Shown: piece by piece, positions 35,012 to 46,731 of the stretch
How the letters are laid out: the number at the start of each line of letters is the position of its first letter
Position numbering within the stretch: position 1 is the first letter of the stretch
Origin: Bacillota bacterium
GTDB lineage: Bacteria; Bacillota; Sulfobacillia; JAIMAT01
Assembly: GCA_029960955.1 (NCBI GenBank)
Contig: JASBVS010000037.1
Location: 124,001-188,000, forward strand
Length of the DNA: 64,000 bases
Direction of reading: 5' to 3'
Position numbers and translations under genes: made by a program
Notes under the pieces: generated by a model
What the model saw: the letters and a program-made list of their open reading frames with translations, nothing else
Told to the model about the DNA's origin: nothing
The model's database searches: none

Positions 35012-35088
35012 GGCCCGCGCGTCCGGGCGGGAGCGCGGTCGCTCCGCCCTTCCTCCCGGGTTAGACTGCAGCCTCGGGAGGGGTGCAC

Positions 35089-36138
35089 GTGGGATCGCTG
35101 ACGGCCTTGCTGGGGGCGCCCCTGGACGGCCTGCCGCTCTGGCGCTGGCTGCTGGCGGCACTGGTGGCCGCCGTCGTCTACGCGCTCCTGCACTGGGGGC
35201 GCCGCGGCACCGTGCGGCTCCTGCGCCGGCTGCGCAGGCCGGATCCCGCGGGCGACTTCCCCGCGCTCCTCGCCGGTCTTCTGGAACGGCGGAGCGGCGC
35301 CTTCGCCTTCGCGCTGCTCGCCCTGGCGGCGGGTTCGCTCCTCCTCAGCCCGTCGCCGCGGGCGCTGTCGGTGGTCCGGGCGGTGACGCTGGCCGCCCTC
35401 TGGTTCCAGATCGGCCTCTGGAGCGACCTGGTCGTCCGCTGGTGGCTGGCGCGCGCCTTCGGCGCCGGCCGCGGCCCCGGCGAACTCGAGCCGGAGGCGG
35501 CCTCGGTCTTCTCGGCCCTGGCGCTGATCGGACGGGTGCTCCTCTGGGTGCTGGTGGCGCTCCTGATCCTGGGCTCGCTGGGCGTCAACGTGGTCGCGCT
35601 GCTCGCCGGCCTCAGCATCGCCGGTGTCGCCGTCGCCTTCGCCGTCCAGAATGTCCTGGGCGACCTGATCGCCTCGCTGGCCATCGTCCTCGACAAGCCC
35701 TTCGTCGTCGGCGACCTCGTCGCCGCCGGCGACTTCACCGGCACGGTGGAGGCGATCGGCCTCCGCGCCACCCGGCTCCGGGCGCTGACGGGCGAGCAGC
35801 TGGTCATCCCCAACGCCGACCTCAGCCGCAGCCGGATCCGGAACTACGGCCGCGCCGGCCGGCGGCTGGTCGTCCAGCGCTACGGGGTGGCCTTCGAGAC
35901 GCCGCCGGAGAAGCTGGAGGCGCTGCCCGACCGCCTGGAGCGGGCGCTCTCCTCCGTTCCGGGGATCGCTTCCTGCCGGGTCCACTTGGCGGGGCCGGCG
36001 GGCGGCGGTTTCGCGCTGGAGGTGGCCTTCACGGTCCCGGGCGGCGATGCGCAAAGCCTCCTGGAGAGCCGGCAGAAGGCCGCGCTGGCCGTGCGGCGCG
36101 CGCTGGCCGAGGAGGGCGTCGCGCCCGCCGCCGGCTGA
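35089..36138 (+). CDS. mscS: MscS-family small-conductance mechanosensitive channel
   Basis: The 349-residue product has N-terminal membrane helices. The pore helix and beta domain follow: LGVNVVALLAGLSIAGVAVAFAVQNVLGDLIASLAIVLDKPFVVGDLV, with the Gly/Ala-rich pattern of TM3. The lining segment EAIGLRATRLRALTGEQLVIPNADLSRSRIRNY is characteristic. The channel releases solutes on hypo-osmotic shock. The GTG at 35089 is 7 bases after GGAGG; a GTG at 35083 is nearer. It converges on the c-di-AMP-riboswitch operon. Confidence 0.93.
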   Translation: MGSLTALLGAPLDGLPLWRWLLAALVAAVVYALLHWGRRGTVRLLRRLRRPDPAGDFPALLAGLLERRSGAFAFALLALAAGSLLLSPSPRALSVVRAVTLAALWFQIGLWSDLVVRWWLARAFGAGRGPGELEPEAASVFSALALIGRVLLWVLVALLILGSLGVNVVALLAGLSIAGVAVAFAVQNVLGDLIASLAIVLDKPFVVGDLVAAGDFTGTVEAIGLRATRLRALTGEQLVIPNADLSRSRIRNYGRAGRRLVVQRYGVAFETPPEKLEALPDRLERALSSVPGIASCRVHLAGPAGGGFALEVAFTVPGGDAQSLLESRQKAALAVRRALAEEGVAPAAG

Positions 36139-36242: not shown

Positions 36243-37958
36243 TCAGCGAGCCGGAGCGCCCGCCGCGGGGCGCGGCGCCCACCCCTGGCGCAGCGCCCGG
36301 TCCACGAGGCGCCGGACCCGCTCGCTCTCGCTCAGCGGCTGGCCCGTCTCCGGATCCACGGCGCGGCAGGCGCCGTCGACCAGGCGCGTCACCACCTCGC
36401 CGCGCGCCTCGGGATTGCCGCGCAGCTGGGGCGCGTCGATCAGGCCGACGCGGACGGCCCGCGCCAGCGTGGCCGCGTCCGCCCAGGGATCGGTCACGCC
36501 CGGCTCCGCCAGCGAGCGGATCGCCTCCAGGAGGATCATCGCTTCCTGGACCAGCTCCTCCCGCCTCGCCTGGACGTTGGGGTCGACGGCCATGGCCGGC
36601 AACCCCTCCAGCGCGTCGCGGACGACGCCGCGGGCCAGGCGGGCGGCCTCGATCACGTCCTGCGCCGTGGCCGCGTGGTCGGCCTCCACCGGCGCCACGA
36701 CGTGGACGATATGCGGCCGCAGCGCCATCTGCAGGAGCGTGGTCGCGCCCAGATGGCCGCGCGCCACGTCCACGTCGGCCGGCATGCTGGTCAGCCCGGC
36801 CCGCGTCTCGCGCAACACGGTGAAGCCGTCGCCCTCTAGCGACTCGATCAGCTCCGCCTTGGCCAGCATCTTGGCCAGGTCCATCGCGAACGAGGTGCCC
36901 GCGGGCGTGTTGAACATGAACTGGGCGACGTAGGTGCGGACGCCCGCCGCCCGCGCGTTGTAGGCGGCCAGGAAGGCCATGGCCACGGCGACGCTGTCGG
37001 GAGCGTCGCGCAGGCTCCAGTGGTGCGCCTCGTTCGACTCCAGCGGGATGCCGTGCGCCCCGTGCCAGGCGAAGGCGGCCTGCGCCTCCCGGATCGTCTC
37101 CTCCAGCGGCCGCCGGCTCCGCCCGTCCAGGAGGCTGTACCAGGTGAGCGGGACCGCCCCCCAGGCCAGGTGGATGGTCTCGCGCAGCACCTCGGCCATG
37201 CGCACGATGTCGCGCGTCCCGCTGTACGAGCGCATCAGCGGGAAGTTGCCGCGCCGCGAGGCCTCGTAGAGCGCGCGGAACTGCTCGGGGGTGTGGACGG
37301 GGACGCCCCCCGCCCCTTCCTGGCGCGGATCGCGTTCCTCCGGGTGGAAGAAGTGCTCCTGGGTGTTCTGGTCCACCCCCAGCGAGATGACGTCCACCGC
37401 GCGGGAGTCGGCGATCGCCGCCACGCCCTGCAGCGTCTCCTCGTAGGAAGGGCGACCGTAGTGGTGGCGGATCAGCGGGAACGGCGCCTGCGCGCGCACC
37501 CGCTCGACCAGCGTCTGCGGGTAGGCGGTCGGCGCCGACTCCAGCGGCCGCCCGCGCAGCCAGGCAAGGACCGCCTCGTCGCCCTCGCTCCCGTCGAAGA
37601 CGGCGTCGAAGAGGCGGGAGCGGGCGGCCACCCGGGCCACCGGCGGGGTGCCGCCGAAGGCGAGGCGGGGCCGCCGGCGGCCTTTCAGCCCGCGCGTCTC
37701 CAGCTCGCGGGCGAAGCTCTCCAGCACCCGGCCGGCCGCCTCCGGCGTCAGCCGGTAGCTCACCCCGACCAGGTCGGGGCGCTCGCGCGCCACGGCGCGG
37801 GCGAAGTCGGCGGGGTCGACGGCCGGCCCCAGGAAGAGCGTCCGGTAACCGGCCACCTCGGCCAGGCGGAGGAAGCGGGTGACCCCCGCCACGTGGACGC
37901 ACTCCCCGATCGCCCCCGCCATCACCAGCGGCTGCTTCAGACCGGCATGGGAAGCCAC
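36243..37958 (-). CDS. Cobalamin-binding-domain protein with a mutase-like C-terminal region, function unknown
   Basis: The 571-residue product begins with a B12-binding Rossmann domain (residues about 10-150): LVMAGAIGECVHVAGVTRFLRLAEVAGYRTLFLGPAV, then DLVGVSYRLTPEAAGRVLESF. The ligand motif DxHxxG reads CVHVAG, keeping His and Gly but not Asp. A long alpha/beta region follows (MRSYSGTRDIVRMAEVLRE, PLTWYSLLDGRS, GIPLESNEAHHWSLRDAPDSVAVAMAFLAAYNARAAGV, FMFNTPAGTSFAMDLAKMLAKAELI). It resembles the barrel subunit of cobalamin mutases such as methylaspartate mutase E. The reaction is unknown. The GTG at 37958 follows AAGGAGG and overlaps the upstream dehydrogenase gene by 22 bases, so both are one operon. 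Confidence 0.7.
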   Translation of the reverse strand: MASHAGLKQPLVMAGAIGECVHVAGVTRFLRLAEVAGYRTLFLGPAVDPADFARAVARERPDLVGVSYRLTPEAAGRVLESFARELETRGLKGRRRPRLAFGGTPPVARVAARSRLFDAVFDGSEGDEAVLAWLRGRPLESAPTAYPQTLVERVRAQAPFPLIRHHYGRPSYEETLQGVAAIADSRAVDVISLGVDQNTQEHFFHPEERDPRQEGAGGVPVHTPEQFRALYEASRRGNFPLMRSYSGTRDIVRMAEVLRETIHLAWGAVPLTWYSLLDGRSRRPLEETIREAQAAFAWHGAHGIPLESNEAHHWSLRDAPDSVAVAMAFLAAYNARAAGVRTYVAQFMFNTPAGTSFAMDLAKMLAKAELIESLEGDGFTVLRETRAGLTSMPADVDVARGHLGATTLLQMALRPHIVHVVAPVEADHAATAQDVIEAARLARGVVRDALEGLPAMAVDPNVQARREELVQEAMILLEAIRSLAEPGVTDPWADAATLARAVRVGLIDAPQLRGNPEARGEVVTRLVDGACRAVDPETGQPLSESERVRRLVDRALRQGWAPRPAAGAPAR

Positions 37959-39055
37959 GAACGGACCCCTCCTTCACGGACGTAGCGGAGCAGCTGCTCG
38001 GCCCCCTCGAAGCCCAGGTTCTCCAGCGTCCGCCCGCGGGCGCGGAGATCGACGCCGGCCACCTGGCAGGCGAGCGTCACCAGCGCCTCCGTCAGCGGCA
38101 CGGGGACGCCCAGCTCGCGGCCCAGGGAGGCCAGCGGCACCAGCCCCGTGGGCACGTCCTCGAGGATGTACCGGTTCTGCAGGCTGCACGGCGCGGCGAT
38201 CCCCCCGTAGGCGGGATTGCTCTGGATCGCACCGTACAGGTCGTCGCCGCAGGCGCCGTACGCTTCCTCCAGCCAGGCGCGGGCGCTCTGCACGGCGACG
38301 CCCAGGGCGCGCGCCACCGCCAGCCGCTCCCCGTCCAGCGCCTCCAGCAGCCGCGCCACCGCCGGCGAGATCCCCTGGCGGTAGTACTCGAAGGTTTCGC
38401 CCGCCTCGATGCGGGCCGCGTTGAGAAGGGTGGGCGCCGGGTGGAAGATGGCGCCGACGTTCCCCAGCGAGGTGGCCAGCACGTCGGGCGCCGCCACGAA
38501 CTGGGGAAGCGCCCGCGCCAGGGGCTCCAGCACCTCCTCCGTCCGCCGGGCCGGCACCGCCGCCAGCGGCACCTCGTGCTTCACCTGGAAGACGCGGACG
38601 CGTCCAGGAGCCACCACCCGGCTGGCGTAGAGGAGCGTCTGCGCCTCGGCGACCAGCACGCCGGCCGGGGCGCCCGCCAGGCGGAGCGCCTGCTCCACCT
38701 CCAGCGCCCCCAGCGTCCGCCCGGGGTGGAGCAGGACTTTCTGGCCCGGGCGCAGGTGGGGCGCAAGCCAGGCGGCCACGTCGCGGTGGGCGTGGGCGGG
38801 CACGACCACCAGCACCAGCTCGGCCGTCTCCAGGAGCGGGGCGGGCTCCGAGCCGGCCGCCACCAGGCGGCCGAAGCCCTCCAGCGCCCCCTCCAGCTGG
38901 ATGCCGCCGCGCTCGACGACGGCCGCGATCTTCCCGGGAGTCCGGTTGAGAAGCGCCACCGGGTGGCCGAGCAGCGCCAGGTGGCCGGCCATGGCCAGGC
39001 CGCCACCCCCCGCCCCCACGACGGTGAAACGCGGTTCGATCCGCGCGCTGCGCAC
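37937..39055 (-). CDS. Octopine/nopaline dehydrogenase-family NAD(P) oxidoreductase
   Basis: The 372-residue product has the nucleotide fold FTVVGAGGGGLAMAGHLALLGHPVALLNRTPGKI. VLVVVPAHAHRDVAAWLAPHLRPGQKVLLHPGRTLGALEV and the opine-dehydrogenase C-domain signature SLGNVGAIFHPAPTLLNAARIE follow; the last contains the catalytic His. Family members reductively join an amino acid to a 2-oxo acid, or act on related compounds. GTG at 39055 lies behind GAGGGGGG; an ATG at 39100 is in frame but sits directly on the terminator T-run. It is the first gene behind a c-di-AMP riboswitch and overlaps the cobalamin-protein gene. Confidence 0.82.
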   Translation of the reverse strand: MRSARIEPRFTVVGAGGGGLAMAGHLALLGHPVALLNRTPGKIAAVVERGGIQLEGALEGFGRLVAAGSEPAPLLETAELVLVVVPAHAHRDVAAWLAPHLRPGQKVLLHPGRTLGALEVEQALRLAGAPAGVLVAEAQTLLYASRVVAPGRVRVFQVKHEVPLAAVPARRTEEVLEPLARALPQFVAAPDVLATSLGNVGAIFHPAPTLLNAARIEAGETFEYYRQGISPAVARLLEALDGERLAVARALGVAVQSARAWLEEAYGACGDDLYGAIQSNPAYGGIAAPCSLQNRYILEDVPTGLVPLASLGRELGVPVPLTEALVTLACQVAGVDLRARGRTLENLGFEGAEQLLRYVREGGVRSWLPMPV

Positions 39056-39064
39056 GGCGATCCC

Positions 39065-39085
39065 CCCTCGAGCGGATCTCGAGGG
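39065..39085 (-). promoter_or_regulatory. Hairpin covering the ribosome binding site of the opine-dehydrogenase-like gene
   Basis: The perfect stem CCCTCGAG / CTCGAGGG (8 pairs, 5-base loop) places the GAGGG ribosome site in its 3' arm on the minus-strand RNA, 10 bases before the GTG start. It would hide the site unless opened by ribosomes or another RNA segment, giving a second layer of control after the terminator. Confidence 0.55.
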
Positions 39086-39100
39086 CCGGTCCAAGGGCAT

Positions 39101-39126
39101 GAAAAAAGCCCAGGAGCAGGCCTGGG
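39101..39126 (-). terminator. Intrinsic terminator (expression platform) of the c-di-AMP riboswitch
   Basis: On the minus strand, CCCAGG-CCTGCT-CCTGGG is followed by CTTTTTTC, a textbook hairpin with a U-run, rare in this GC-rich window. It lies between the aptamer (39163-39288) and the first gene, so it is the on/off element. In known ydaO-type switches ligand binding favours termination. Confidence 0.85.
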
Positions 39127-39162
39127 TCGCGCGCGCGGCGCGCCCGGCCGCCTCCTCTCCCC

Positions 39163-39288
39163 ACGCCTGCGAGGTTAGCTGACGGGCTCGGGCCGGAAGA
39201 GTCTGGCCCTACGGTTCCTTCCGCCTCGGAACCGATTGGCCCCGGAACATTGGGTCCCCCGCTCCCCGTCTCCGGGGATTCGGCGATC
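39163..39288 (-). ncRNA. c-di-AMP riboswitch (ydaO-yuaA class) aptamer
   Basis: The minus-strand RNA matches the class landmarks in order. They are GCCGAATCC near the 5' end, GGAGCGGGGGACCCAA, GGGGCCAATC, a GGTTCC/GGAACC helix followed by GTAGGG, TCTTCCGGCCC, and the hallmark 3' segment CCCGTCAGCTAACCTCGCAGGC. The 5' GCC pairs with the 3' GGC (P1). I recognised it from the published consensus and crystal-structure sequences by eye. A terminator follows 37 bases downstream and a promoter precedes it by about 30 bases. The controlled operon encodes an opine-dehydrogenase-like enzyme and a cobalamin-binding protein. Confidence 0.93.
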
Positions 39289-39320
39289 AGGCGAACCGGC
39301 GAACCTCGGTTGTCACCCGA

Positions 39321-39349
39321 TCTGTAACAGAACCGCCCGACCCGGTCAA
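39321..39349 (-). promoter_or_regulatory. Promoter of the c-di-AMP riboswitch operon
   Basis: On the minus strand, -35 TTGACC (39349-39344) and -10 TACAGA (39326-39321) are 17 bases apart. Transcription would begin near 39314, about 25 bases before the aptamer, as expected for a leader RNA. Confidence 0.65.
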
Positions 39350-40145: not shown

Positions 40146-40212
40146 ATCGCCCGCTCCGGCGATGGCGGCGGTCGTTCCGCCGGGGCATGGTCGGGGGATG
40201 GAGGTTGATGGG

Positions 40213-41307
40213 ATGCCGTCGCGGGACTTCGATTCCTACCCCTTCCTGGTGATCTGGGAGACGACCGTCGCCTGCGGCCTGGGCTGCCTGCACTGCCGCG
40301 CCAGCGCGCGCCGGGAGCGGGATCCGCAGGAGCTGGGCACCGCGGAGGCGCTCGACCTGGTCGCCCAGGTGGCGGAGCTGGAGCGGCCGCTCTTCGTTCT
40401 CTCCGGGGGCGACCCGATGATGCGCGAGGACCTGGAGGAGATCGTGCGGGAGGCCGCCCGCAGGAAGCTCTCGGTGGCGGTGACCGCCAGCGCCACCCCC
40501 CGCGTCACGCGCGAGCGGATCCGCGCCCTGGCCGAGGCCGGCCTGACGCAGTGGGCCTTCAGCCTGGACGGCCCGACGCCCGAGGTCCACGACCGCTTCC
40601 GCGGCGTGCCCGGCACCTTCGCCCTGACGCTGGAGCGGATCGCATGGCTGCGCGAGATGGGCTTGCCGGTGCAGGTGAACACGGTGGTGACGCGCCACAA
40701 CCTGGAGCTGCTGCCGGCGATGGCGGAGCTGGTCCGGCGTCTCGGCGCCGTCCGCTGGGAGGTCTTCACGCTGATCCCGGTCGGCCGCGCGGCGGAGGGG
40801 GTCGAGCAGGTGACGCCGGAGGAGCACGAGCGGGTGATGGCCTGGCTGGCGGAGCTGGCCGGGCGCGTCCCCTTCGCCGTCACGTCCACGGAGGGTCCGC
40901 AGGTGCGGCGGATCCGCGCGCAGGCGGCCGGCGCGGGCCGCGCGCGCGGCGGGGCCGGCGAGGCCGGCGAGGCCGGCGGGCGACGACGGGGGATGCCCGG
41001 CAGCCCGCTTCCCGTCTGGGACGGGAACGGCTTCATCTTCGTCTCCTACCGGGGGGAGGTCTTCCCCAGCGGCTTCCTGCCGCTGGCGGCCGGGAACGTC
41101 CGGGAGCGGCGGCTGGGCGCGATCTACCGGGAGGCTCCGCTCCTCCGGGCGCTCCGCCGGCCCGACGGCTTCCACGGCAAGTGCGGGCTCTGCGAGTACC
41201 GCCGCATCTGCGGCGGGTCGCGGGCGCTGGCCTACGCGACGACCGGCGACCCGCTGGGCAGCGATCCGCTCTGCACCTATTCGCCTTCCGCCGCGGAGGC
41301 GCTATAA
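40213..41307 (+). CDS. Radical SAM / SPASM-domain protein
   Basis: The 364-residue product has the Fe-S motif CGLGCLHC (CxxxCxxC), LSGGDPMMREDL for SAM binding, and a C-terminal SPASM-like cluster region (GKCGLCEYRRICGGSRALAY, DPLCTY). The start FDSYPFLVIWETT and the cysteine pattern resemble the heme-biosynthesis/AhbD-like and TIGR04053 groups of radical SAM enzymes, but no substrate peptide or heme gene is adjacent. A Gly/Ala/Arg-rich insert (about residues 236-259) interrupts the barrel end. ATG at 40213 is 8 bases after GGAGG and is preferred over earlier in-frame starts. Confidence 0.85.
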   Translation: MPSRDFDSYPFLVIWETTVACGLGCLHCRASARRERDPQELGTAEALDLVAQVAELERPLFVLSGGDPMMREDLEEIVREAARRKLSVAVTASATPRVTRERIRALAEAGLTQWAFSLDGPTPEVHDRFRGVPGTFALTLERIAWLREMGLPVQVNTVVTRHNLELLPAMAELVRRLGAVRWEVFTLIPVGRAAEGVEQVTPEEHERVMAWLAELAGRVPFAVTSTEGPQVRRIRAQAAGAGRARGGAGEAGEAGGRRRGMPGSPLPVWDGNGFIFVSYRGEVFPSGFLPLAAGNVRERRLGAIYREAPLLRALRRPDGFHGKCGLCEYRRICGGSRALAYATTGDPLGSDPLCTYSPSAAEAL

Positions 41308-45123: not shown

Positions 45124-45163
45124 GTGCAATGGGTTTGCACACTCGACTCGAGTGCCTATTGTA
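45124..45163 (-). promoter_or_regulatory. Promoter region of the kinase operon with two adjoining inverted repeats
   Basis: On the minus strand a -10 TACAAT (45163-45158) is followed at the transcription start by a 7-base inverted repeat CACTCGA-C-TCGAGTG (45140-45154). A second repeat, GTGCAA-N5-TTGCAC, lies at 45124-45140. Both lie between the -10 and the ribosome site. They could be operator sites or, as RNA, two adjoining hairpins. No clear -35 is visible, which would fit activator control. Confidence 0.55.
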
Positions 45164-45396
45164 CACGGAGCGGCCAGCGGGAGCCACCGTTCACCCCCCG
45201 CCCGCGACCGTCCGTCGCAGGAAGAGGACCGCTCGGCGGCGGGCGCTGGCCGCGGCTCCGCCCGCGGGTTATAAGGGCGTCGGGCGATCCCCGCCGGGCC
45301 CGGCGCGCCGGCAGCGGCCAGGTCTGGACGCCGAGGCGTCCTGTGGGGCATCATGCTGGGAAACGGCGGATGCGTGACGAGGAGGAGGATGGAAGG

Positions 45397-46731
45397 ATGG
45401 GTACGAGCTCGGTGCGCGAACGCGTCCGCCGTGAGGCGGAAGAGATGGAGAGGGAATGGGCGGAGGCGTCGCGCTGGCAGGGGATCCGGCGCGACTACTC
45501 CGCCCGCGACGTGGTCCGCCTGCGCGGCTCGGTGCGCGTCGACCAGCCGCTGGCGCGAAGGACGGCAGAACGGCTCTGGAGGCTGATGCACGAGAGGCCC
45601 TTCGTGCCCGCGCTGGGCGCGCTGACCGGCGGCCAGGCGGTCCAGATGGTGAAGGCCGGCCTGGAGGCCATCTACCTGAGCGGCTGGCAGGTGGCCGCCG
45701 ACGCCAACCTGGCAGGCGAGACCTACCCCGACCTGAGCCTCTACCCCTCCAACAGCGTCCCGGCGCTGGTGCGAAGGATCAACCGGGCGCTCCTCCGTGC
45801 CGACCAGATCGACTGGCTCGAGGAGCGGGACGGCACCGACTGGCTGGTCCCCGTCGTGGCCGACGCCGAGGCGGGCTTCGGCGGCCCGCTCAACGTCTTC
45901 GAGCTGACGAAGGCGATGATCGAGGCGGGCGCCGCCGCCGTGCACTTCGAGGACCAGCTGGCGGCGGAGAAGAAGTGCGGCCACATGGGCGGCAAGGTGC
46001 TGGTGCCCACCTCGCAGCACATCCGGACCCTGCAGGCGGCCCGCCTGGCCGCCGACGTCATGGGCGTGCCGACGGTGATCGTGGCGCGCACCGACGCGCT
46101 GGGCGCCAACCTGCTGACCAGCGACGTCGATCCGCGCGACCGCCCCTTCCTGACGGGGGAGCGGACGCCGGAGGGCTACTTCCGCGTCCGCAACGGCCTC
46201 GAGGCGGCCATCCAGCGCTCGCTGGCCTACGCCCCCTACGCCGACCTCCTCTGGTTCGAGACGGCGCGCCCCGACCTGGAGGAGGCGCGGCGCTTCGCCG
46301 AGGCGATCCACCGCCACTTCCCCGGCAAGCTGCTGGCCTACAACTGCTCCCCCAGCTTCAACTGGCGCCGCCACCTGGACGAGGAGCAGATCGCGCGCTT
46401 CCAGCGGGAGCTGGGCGAGATGGGCTACCGCTTCCAGTTCATCACCCTGGCCGGCTTCCACGCGCTGAACGCCAGCATCTTCCAGCTGGCCCGCGGCTAC
46501 GCCCAGCGCGGGATGAGCGCCTACGTGGAGCTGCAGGACCAGGAGTTCGCCCTGGAGCGCGAGGGGTACACCGCCACGCGCCACCAGCGGGAGGCCGGAG
46601 CGGGCTACTTCGACGCGGTGGCCGAGGTGATCAGCGGCGGCCTCGCCTCCACCCTGTCGCTGCGCGGCTCGACCGAGGAGGAGCAGTTCGAGGGCGACGA
46701 GGCCCCGGCGCGCATCGCCGCGGAGGCCTGA
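45397..46731 (+). CDS. aceA: Isocitrate lyase
   Basis: Isocitrate lyase splits isocitrate into succinate and glyoxylate in the glyoxylate shunt. The 444-residue product has [33 protein letters not shown], the active-site loop [31 protein letters not shown] and [14 protein letters not shown]. All are typical. The ATG at 45397 follows GGAGGAGGATGGAAGG. No malate synthase gene is adjacent. Together with the acetyl-CoA synthetase gene at 61 kb it suggests growth on acetate or fatty acids. Confidence 0.95.

Follow-up and report, generated by a model that had tools for sequence, protein, structure and literature searches.

A two-gene operon placed behind a riboswitch for cyclic di-AMP (c-di-AMP) was found in the 64,000-nucleotide stretch analysed here (the window: positions 124,001 to 188,000 of the forward strand of contig JASBVS010000037.1, from a Bacillota bacterium of the Sulfobacillia), and this operon probably constitutes, with a probability that we put at roughly 0.58, the core of a c-di-AMP-controlled biosynthesis of an undescribed amino-acid-derived compatible solute. 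The first gene, here called P1, codes for an enzyme of the opine (octopine/nopaline) dehydrogenase family, and the second, P2, most likely for an adenosylcobalamin-dependent carbon-skeleton mutase of a fused MutS-MutE type. As a signal of osmotic and potassium status, c-di-AMP holds a central place, and most of the riboswitch targets known for it are transporters or wall enzymes. Neither the riboswitch class nor the dehydrogenase family nor the mutase fold is new. In the open literature searched, we found no description of the P1-P2 pairing, of the fused mutase subfamily or of their position in the c-di-AMP regulon; since the surveys of ydaO-linked genes by Block 2010 and Nelson 2013 lay outside that search, they may already list a part of it. 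A salt-stress paper on vitamin B12 in Natronorubrum mentioned neither mutases nor opines. Across Bacillota, including cultured strains of Thermoanaerobacter, Caldanaerobacter and Fervidicola, enzymes of four families seem to form a biosynthetic pathway under c-di-AMP control, for which we found no assigned product, and these cultured hosts make the osmolyte question directly testable. Should the pathway indeed make an osmolyte, B12 radical chemistry would offer a new way to such a compound, and osmoadaptation would be linked to a fused protein with the glutamate mutase fold.

The leader RNA and the two enzymes

Covariance model RF00379 matched the leader of the operon over its entire length (model positions 1-134) with 92 bits (E 2.6e-20), compared with a gathering score of 38 bits, in agreement with the ydaO-yuaA aptamer recognised in a preliminary description of this DNA, which had tied that assignment to a score above the family cut-off. 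No second match to RF00379 was detected in the window genome (2.26 Mb, 93% complete). A scan (shuffle mean 0.1) located an intrinsic terminator, the G+C-rich hairpin CCCAGG-CCTGCT-CCTGGG followed by T6, 24 nucleotides 3' of the aptamer and ahead of P1, an arrangement that amounts to a 5' leader with its expression platform; the order of a terminator followed by two overlapping genes was thus as previously described. Terminator stem and T-run are both retained in two sister species (L097 and L106), the latter having a CCCGGG/CCCGGG stem, which is a compensatory change with respect to the window. By analogy with tested relatives, aptamer and terminator would act as a c-di-AMP OFF switch. The promoter proposed upstream, TTGACC-17-TACAGA, is only plausible: its motif is legible in the sequence and matches 8 of 12 consensus bases, but it was absent from the output of a scan set at 9 of 12. 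Further downstream, the ribosome-binding site of P1 overlaps with a perfect inverted repeat of 8 bp (39053-39085, minus strand; CCCTCGAG-atccg-CTCGAGGG); the repeat is only partially retained in the two sister species, and translational control by it is possible.

Table 1. Position in the window of the operon, its leader elements and the adjoining channel gene.
Feature	Position	Strand	Basis
Promoter-like motif, TTGACC-17-TACAGA (weak)	39321..39349	-	read from the sequence
c-di-AMP (ydaO/yuaA) riboswitch aptamer	39150..39295	-	RF00379, 92 bits, full length
Intrinsic terminator, 6-bp stem and T6 tail	39102..39126	-	scan; stem kept in sister species
P1, opine dehydrogenase-family enzyme	37937..39055	-	PF02317, 164 bits; 1bg6, E 7.1e-81
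P2, probable fused B12-binding (MutS-like) and MutE-like mutase	36243..37958	-	PF02310; fold of AlphaFold2 (AF2) model
MscS-family mechanosensitive channel	35083..36138	+	PF00924, 69 bits; convergent, outside the operon transcript

The octopine/nopaline dehydrogenase identity first suggested for P1 was borne out by PF02317 (cut-off 30 bits), with an ApbA-like N-terminus (Rossmann domain). Its nearest solved relative in a phmmer search, homologous over the full length, is N-(1-D-carboxylethyl)-L-norvaline dehydrogenase (1bg6). The two enzymes have conserved His and Asp motifs in common, and the motifs HPxPTLLNAAR and EDVxTGLVP are intact in P1; the differences lie in the genetic context and regulation of P1, and the likeness does not imply identity of substrates. 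As a member of this family, P1 would perform the reductive condensation of a keto acid with an amino acid. The preferred start of P1 is a GTG (39055) with a good ribosome-binding site, an alternative ATG lying at 39100, immediately after the T-run.

The B12-binding domain and mutase-like region previously seen in P2 were likewise recovered, the former as PF02310 (residues 12-121, over the cut-off) and the latter from structure, given that a Pfam search of the window P2 returned no match beyond this N-terminal domain. His22, within the cobalt-ligating His motif, is invariant among 40 relatives. An AF2 model built on an alignment of 40 sequences (mean predicted local distance difference test score, 91) found its best solved folds, with Foldseek, in the epsilon subunit of glutamate mutase (6h9e_B, 1.5e-17; 1cb7_B, 4e-17), followed by ornithine 4,5-aminomutase, lysine 5,6-aminomutase and methylmalonyl-CoA mutase. 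PF06368 (Met_asp_mut_E) had no match in the window genome, and it exceeded its cut-off inside the P2 of five other genomes (G118, G133, G154, G024 and G094, the last with 30.6 vs. 26.6 bits). A profile comparison of P2 with true MutE gave E 4.5e-5 over 379 columns at about 20% identity. P2 is therefore most likely a fused MutS-MutE mutase, because of the glutamate mutase epsilon fold of the model, the presence of PF06368 in relatives and the occurrence of the MutL reactivase both in one P2 operon (L206, where its gene sits between aptamer and P2) and in a paralogous system (see below). P2 thus resembles glutamate mutase (MutS/MutE, with MutL) in its B12 domain and barrel fold, and differs from it by the fusion of the S and E parts into one chain, by its low identity to MutE and by its association with an opine dehydrogenase. 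Genes for a c-di-AMP cyclase and for a cobalamin adenosyltransferase are likewise present in the window genome.

Conservation of the pair, its switch and its partners

The P1-P2 pair is a conserved unit and not a local accident. P2 relatives are encoded by 502 stretches of the whole collection, and the locus counts given here rest on the 80 best independent loci. In 76 of these 80, P1 lies directly 5' of P2, very commonly with a 1-nucleotide stop/start overlap (22 nucleotides in the window). Hosts comprise Bacillota together with records labelled Armatimonadota, Bacteroidota, Ignavibacteriota, Chloroflexota, Gemmatimonadota, Aminicenantes, Deinococcota and several archaea; many of these records are metagenome bins, so that taxon labels carried by a single record may be wrong.

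The aptamer is strongly enriched upstream of the pair. A covariance model built for this work and run on both strands of the 80 loci (1.14 Mb) found it in 32 independent loci, always in sense and just 5' of the operon, and nowhere else in them. In an alignment that was itself fitted to the model, the helices of the aptamer covary, with 98.4% of helix cells paired and 14 pairs changed on both sides. Among 90 Bacillota genomes holding P2, 46 of 123 RF00379 matches lay upstream of P2 on its own strand at a distance below 6 kb (0.14 expected), and in no other orientation did an aptamer come within 7 kb of P2. The preliminary description would have counted against its reading homologous pairs that never carry osmotic or c-di-AMP control and sit in a known catabolic pathway; the pairs are under c-di-AMP control in 43 of these 90 genomes, and in 18 genomes, that of the window included, the P2-linked aptamer is the sole c-di-AMP aptamer found. 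On a tree of P2, the switch is clustered (about 11 changes needed) and confined to Bacillota, except for one record without a phylum label. One locus (L213:7549-7938, minus strand) has a tandem pair of c-di-AMP aptamers before P1-P2 (103.7 and 100.2 bits).

Two further enzyme families, an AsnB-like amide synthetase and an ATP-grasp ligase resembling D-Ala-D-Ala ligase (Ddl), belong to the same c-di-AMP regulon. The AsnB-like gene comes directly after P2 in 15 of the 80 loci, T. wiegelii among them, and near P2 in two more. The ATP-grasp gene is inserted between aptamer and P1 in Fermentithermobacillaceae, L205, L207, L208, L245 and L246, and is located after P2 in L120 and L247. Modular arrangements, in which single components stand under aptamers of their own, provide the strongest evidence that P1, P2, the ATP-grasp and the AsnB-like enzymes form one c-di-AMP-controlled pathway: a switch-AsnB unit adjoins switch-P1-P2 in L242, a switch-ATP-grasp unit is separate from the switch-P1-P2 of the same genome in L243, and P1 alone stands under its own c-di-AMP aptamer in L250 and L254. 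In no single locus examined do both partners stand beside the pair, which suggests that they are alternative capping steps. The best solved relative of the AsnB-like proteins is asparagine synthetase B, with beta-lactam and carbapenam synthetases matching too. Their glutaminase Cys2 is kept in five linked proteins, that of T. wiegelii included, and lost in 11, several of which have a shortened glutaminase domain; proteins lacking Cys2 occur in L153, L155, L164, L168, L176, L177, L183 and L192. A D-glutamate-cyclase-like gene (PF14336; L183:6989-8071) separates P2 from the AsnB-like gene in one record labelled archaeal. Some apparent partners were discarded: the D-Ala-D-Ala ligase beside P1 in L167 is a true Ddl on the opposite strand (one is oriented alike in L181), and the AsnB genes of L137 and L148 belong to a different subgroup and do not adjoin P2.

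A paralogous system is present in loci L196-L201 (e.g., L199:9-6787 and L197:4085-8976), where a P1-like dehydrogenase (26-34% identity) adjoins a protein of about 1220 residues. The latter is not a fusion of P1 and P2, as might be thought, since it is made of a P2-like mutase with a C-terminal MutL reactivase and stands beside a separate P1-like gene. Its neighbours include an Amidohydro_3 gene (L196, L198 and L199), a Dpp ATP-binding cassette (ABC) importer (L199) and a tripartite ATP-independent periplasmic (TRAP) transporter (L197), and the system is possibly a catabolic counterpart.

A proposed solute pathway and its rivals

Mechanistically, the operon probably functions as follows. At low c-di-AMP, i.e., when potassium is scarce or the cell is under hyperosmotic stress, the leader RNA would permit transcription past the terminator, while at high c-di-AMP the aptamer would fold and transcription would stop. 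P1 would then catalyse the NAD(P)H-dependent condensation of an alpha-keto acid with an amino acid into an N-(carboxyalkyl) amino acid, that is, an opine, and P2 would rearrange the carbon skeleton either of this opine or of its amino-acid precursor. Many relatives may add a capping step, in which the AsnB-like enzyme would turn a carboxylate into an amide or the ATP-grasp ligase would attach a second amino acid to it; this would lower the net charge and yield a low-charge, metabolically inert solute. The regulon membership and the enzyme families are established by the results above; we infer in this scheme the OFF polarity, the direction of the reactions, their substrates and product, as well as the osmotic role. 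Extending it to a widespread, undescribed class of solutes, namely skeleton-rearranged opines, often capped as amides or dipeptides, produced with the help of a B12 mutase and, in Bacillota, under the control of a c-di-AMP switch, is a more tentative proposal, to which we give slightly less than even odds.

The compatible solute guessed at in the preliminary description is strengthened by the co-regulated amide-forming enzymes and by the neighbourhood of an MscS channel and a Na+/H+ exchanger, and we hold it as probable. The MscS gene noticed next to the operon was indeed identified as such (Table 1), and an MscS relative lies directly 5' of P1 in L160, L179 and L193. In L170, P2 is followed by genes for a CBS-domain protein and for a Na+/H+ exchanger, and in L185 by genes of the same sizes and then an MscS relative. 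In genome G028, a c-di-AMP aptamer precedes another operon, the third gene of which is an MscS relative (L244:1996-5787, minus strand).

Two other known systems offer a comparison. Synthesis of the osmolyte N-acetylglutaminylglutamine amide (NAGGN) relies on an AsnB-like amidotransferase and an ATP-grasp-type ligase, which make a capped amino-acid solute. The same enzyme families partner P1-P2 in relatives, but here an opine dehydrogenase and a B12 mutase replace the NAGGN synthetase, and the window genome has neither capping gene. The known NAGGN operon was rejected as an identification, the linked AsnB-like proteins reaching at best 301.6 bits with TIGR03104, for which the cut-off is 570.1 bits. 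A precedent that favours the solute reading exists in Dehalobacter, where a c-di-AMP switch that terminates transcription controls an aminomutase for the precursor of the osmolyte N-epsilon-acetyl-beta-lysine (PMC9337991). This Na+/c-di-AMP-switched lysine-2,3-aminomutase shares with the present operon the control of an amino-acid-rearranging enzyme by aptamer and terminator, in its case for an osmolyte (PMC9337991). P2, by contrast, most likely depends on cobalamin and has an opine dehydrogenase as its partner. The lysine-2,3-aminomutase of the Dehalobacter system is a radical S-adenosylmethionine (SAM)/pyridoxal 5'-phosphate aminomutase.

Several observations weigh against the solute pathway. 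Roughly every second copy in Bacillota, and every copy outside them, is without the aptamer, it being noted that several rows of the P2 tree without a switch are truncated contigs. A specific antiterminator pairing the 3' strand of the aptamer with a terminator arm was not accepted, as it is not kept in sister leaders: the candidate in the window has 10 of 11 bases complementary, 32 of 5000 shuffles being equally good, and the comparative test gave p <= 0.05 in only 3 of 31 leaders. The profile alignment of P2 with MutE is ambiguous as to the arginine claw and Glu171, which are not clearly kept, and P2 is not named a glutamate mutase because conservation of the glutamate-binding residues cannot be demonstrated. 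The MutL reactivase (PF13941), which the majority of the other P2 genomes examined do have, was found in none of the window genus (G000, G001 and G002). Clear orthologues of both capping enzymes were not found in this genus either, the window genome having the dehydrogenase-mutase core only. Finally, the pair of L199 adjoins a peptide (Dpp-type) ABC importer and has no switch.

This last locus bears on the main rival, a catabolic or amino-acid-pool module in which P1 would work oxidatively to cleave an imported or endogenous opine, and P2 would feed the freed amino acid to central metabolism, in the manner of glutamate mutase in clostridial fermentation, with c-di-AMP merely tuning amino-acid pools. 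Besides the importer, a Peptidase_C26 gene and the paralogous dehydrogenase/mutase-MutL system with its amidohydrolase stand beside the pair of L199, a TRAP transporter adjoins the paralogue in L197, and the nearest characterised relative of P1 comes from an opine-using Arthrobacter. However, importers are not general neighbours, and the genuine neighbours met most often are amide-forming synthetases that consume ATP, as suits synthesis; moreover, the c-di-AMP switch tracks the pair, down to being the only one in 18 genomes. We regard catabolism as unlikely, while keeping it ahead of the other rivals.

Wall-remodelling genes are also placed under c-di-AMP switches (PMC7266159), and a cell-envelope module, in which Ddl-like and, in one locus, Mur-ligase-like enzymes would build a modified wall precursor and c-di-AMP would adjust wall synthesis, could account for the Ddl-like nature of the ATP-grasp ligase and for the Mur-ligase-like gene after P2 in L205. 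Such a role is improbable, because some records with the pair carry an archaeal label and most loci have no wall-type ligase; the AsnB-like enzymes are, besides, the commoner partner. Slightly less probable still is a specialised metabolite (e.g., a lactam or other ring) formed from the opine by a Cys-less AsnB-like cyclase for signalling, metal binding or defence: the 11 proteins without Cys2, and the shortened glutaminase domains of several, do recall the beta-lactam and carbapenam synthetases, but asparagine synthetase B is the closer solved relative, T. wiegelii and others keep Cys2, and one would hardly expect a niche metabolite to show conservation across phyla together with a c-di-AMP switch.

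Other genes of the window

Two other open reading frames of the plus strand were noticed. One (40162-41307), near the switch operon, encodes a radical SAM/SPASM protein (TIGR04053, 439.9 bits vs. a cut-off of 395), and the other (45124-46731) resembles isocitrate lyase, as judged by eye only.

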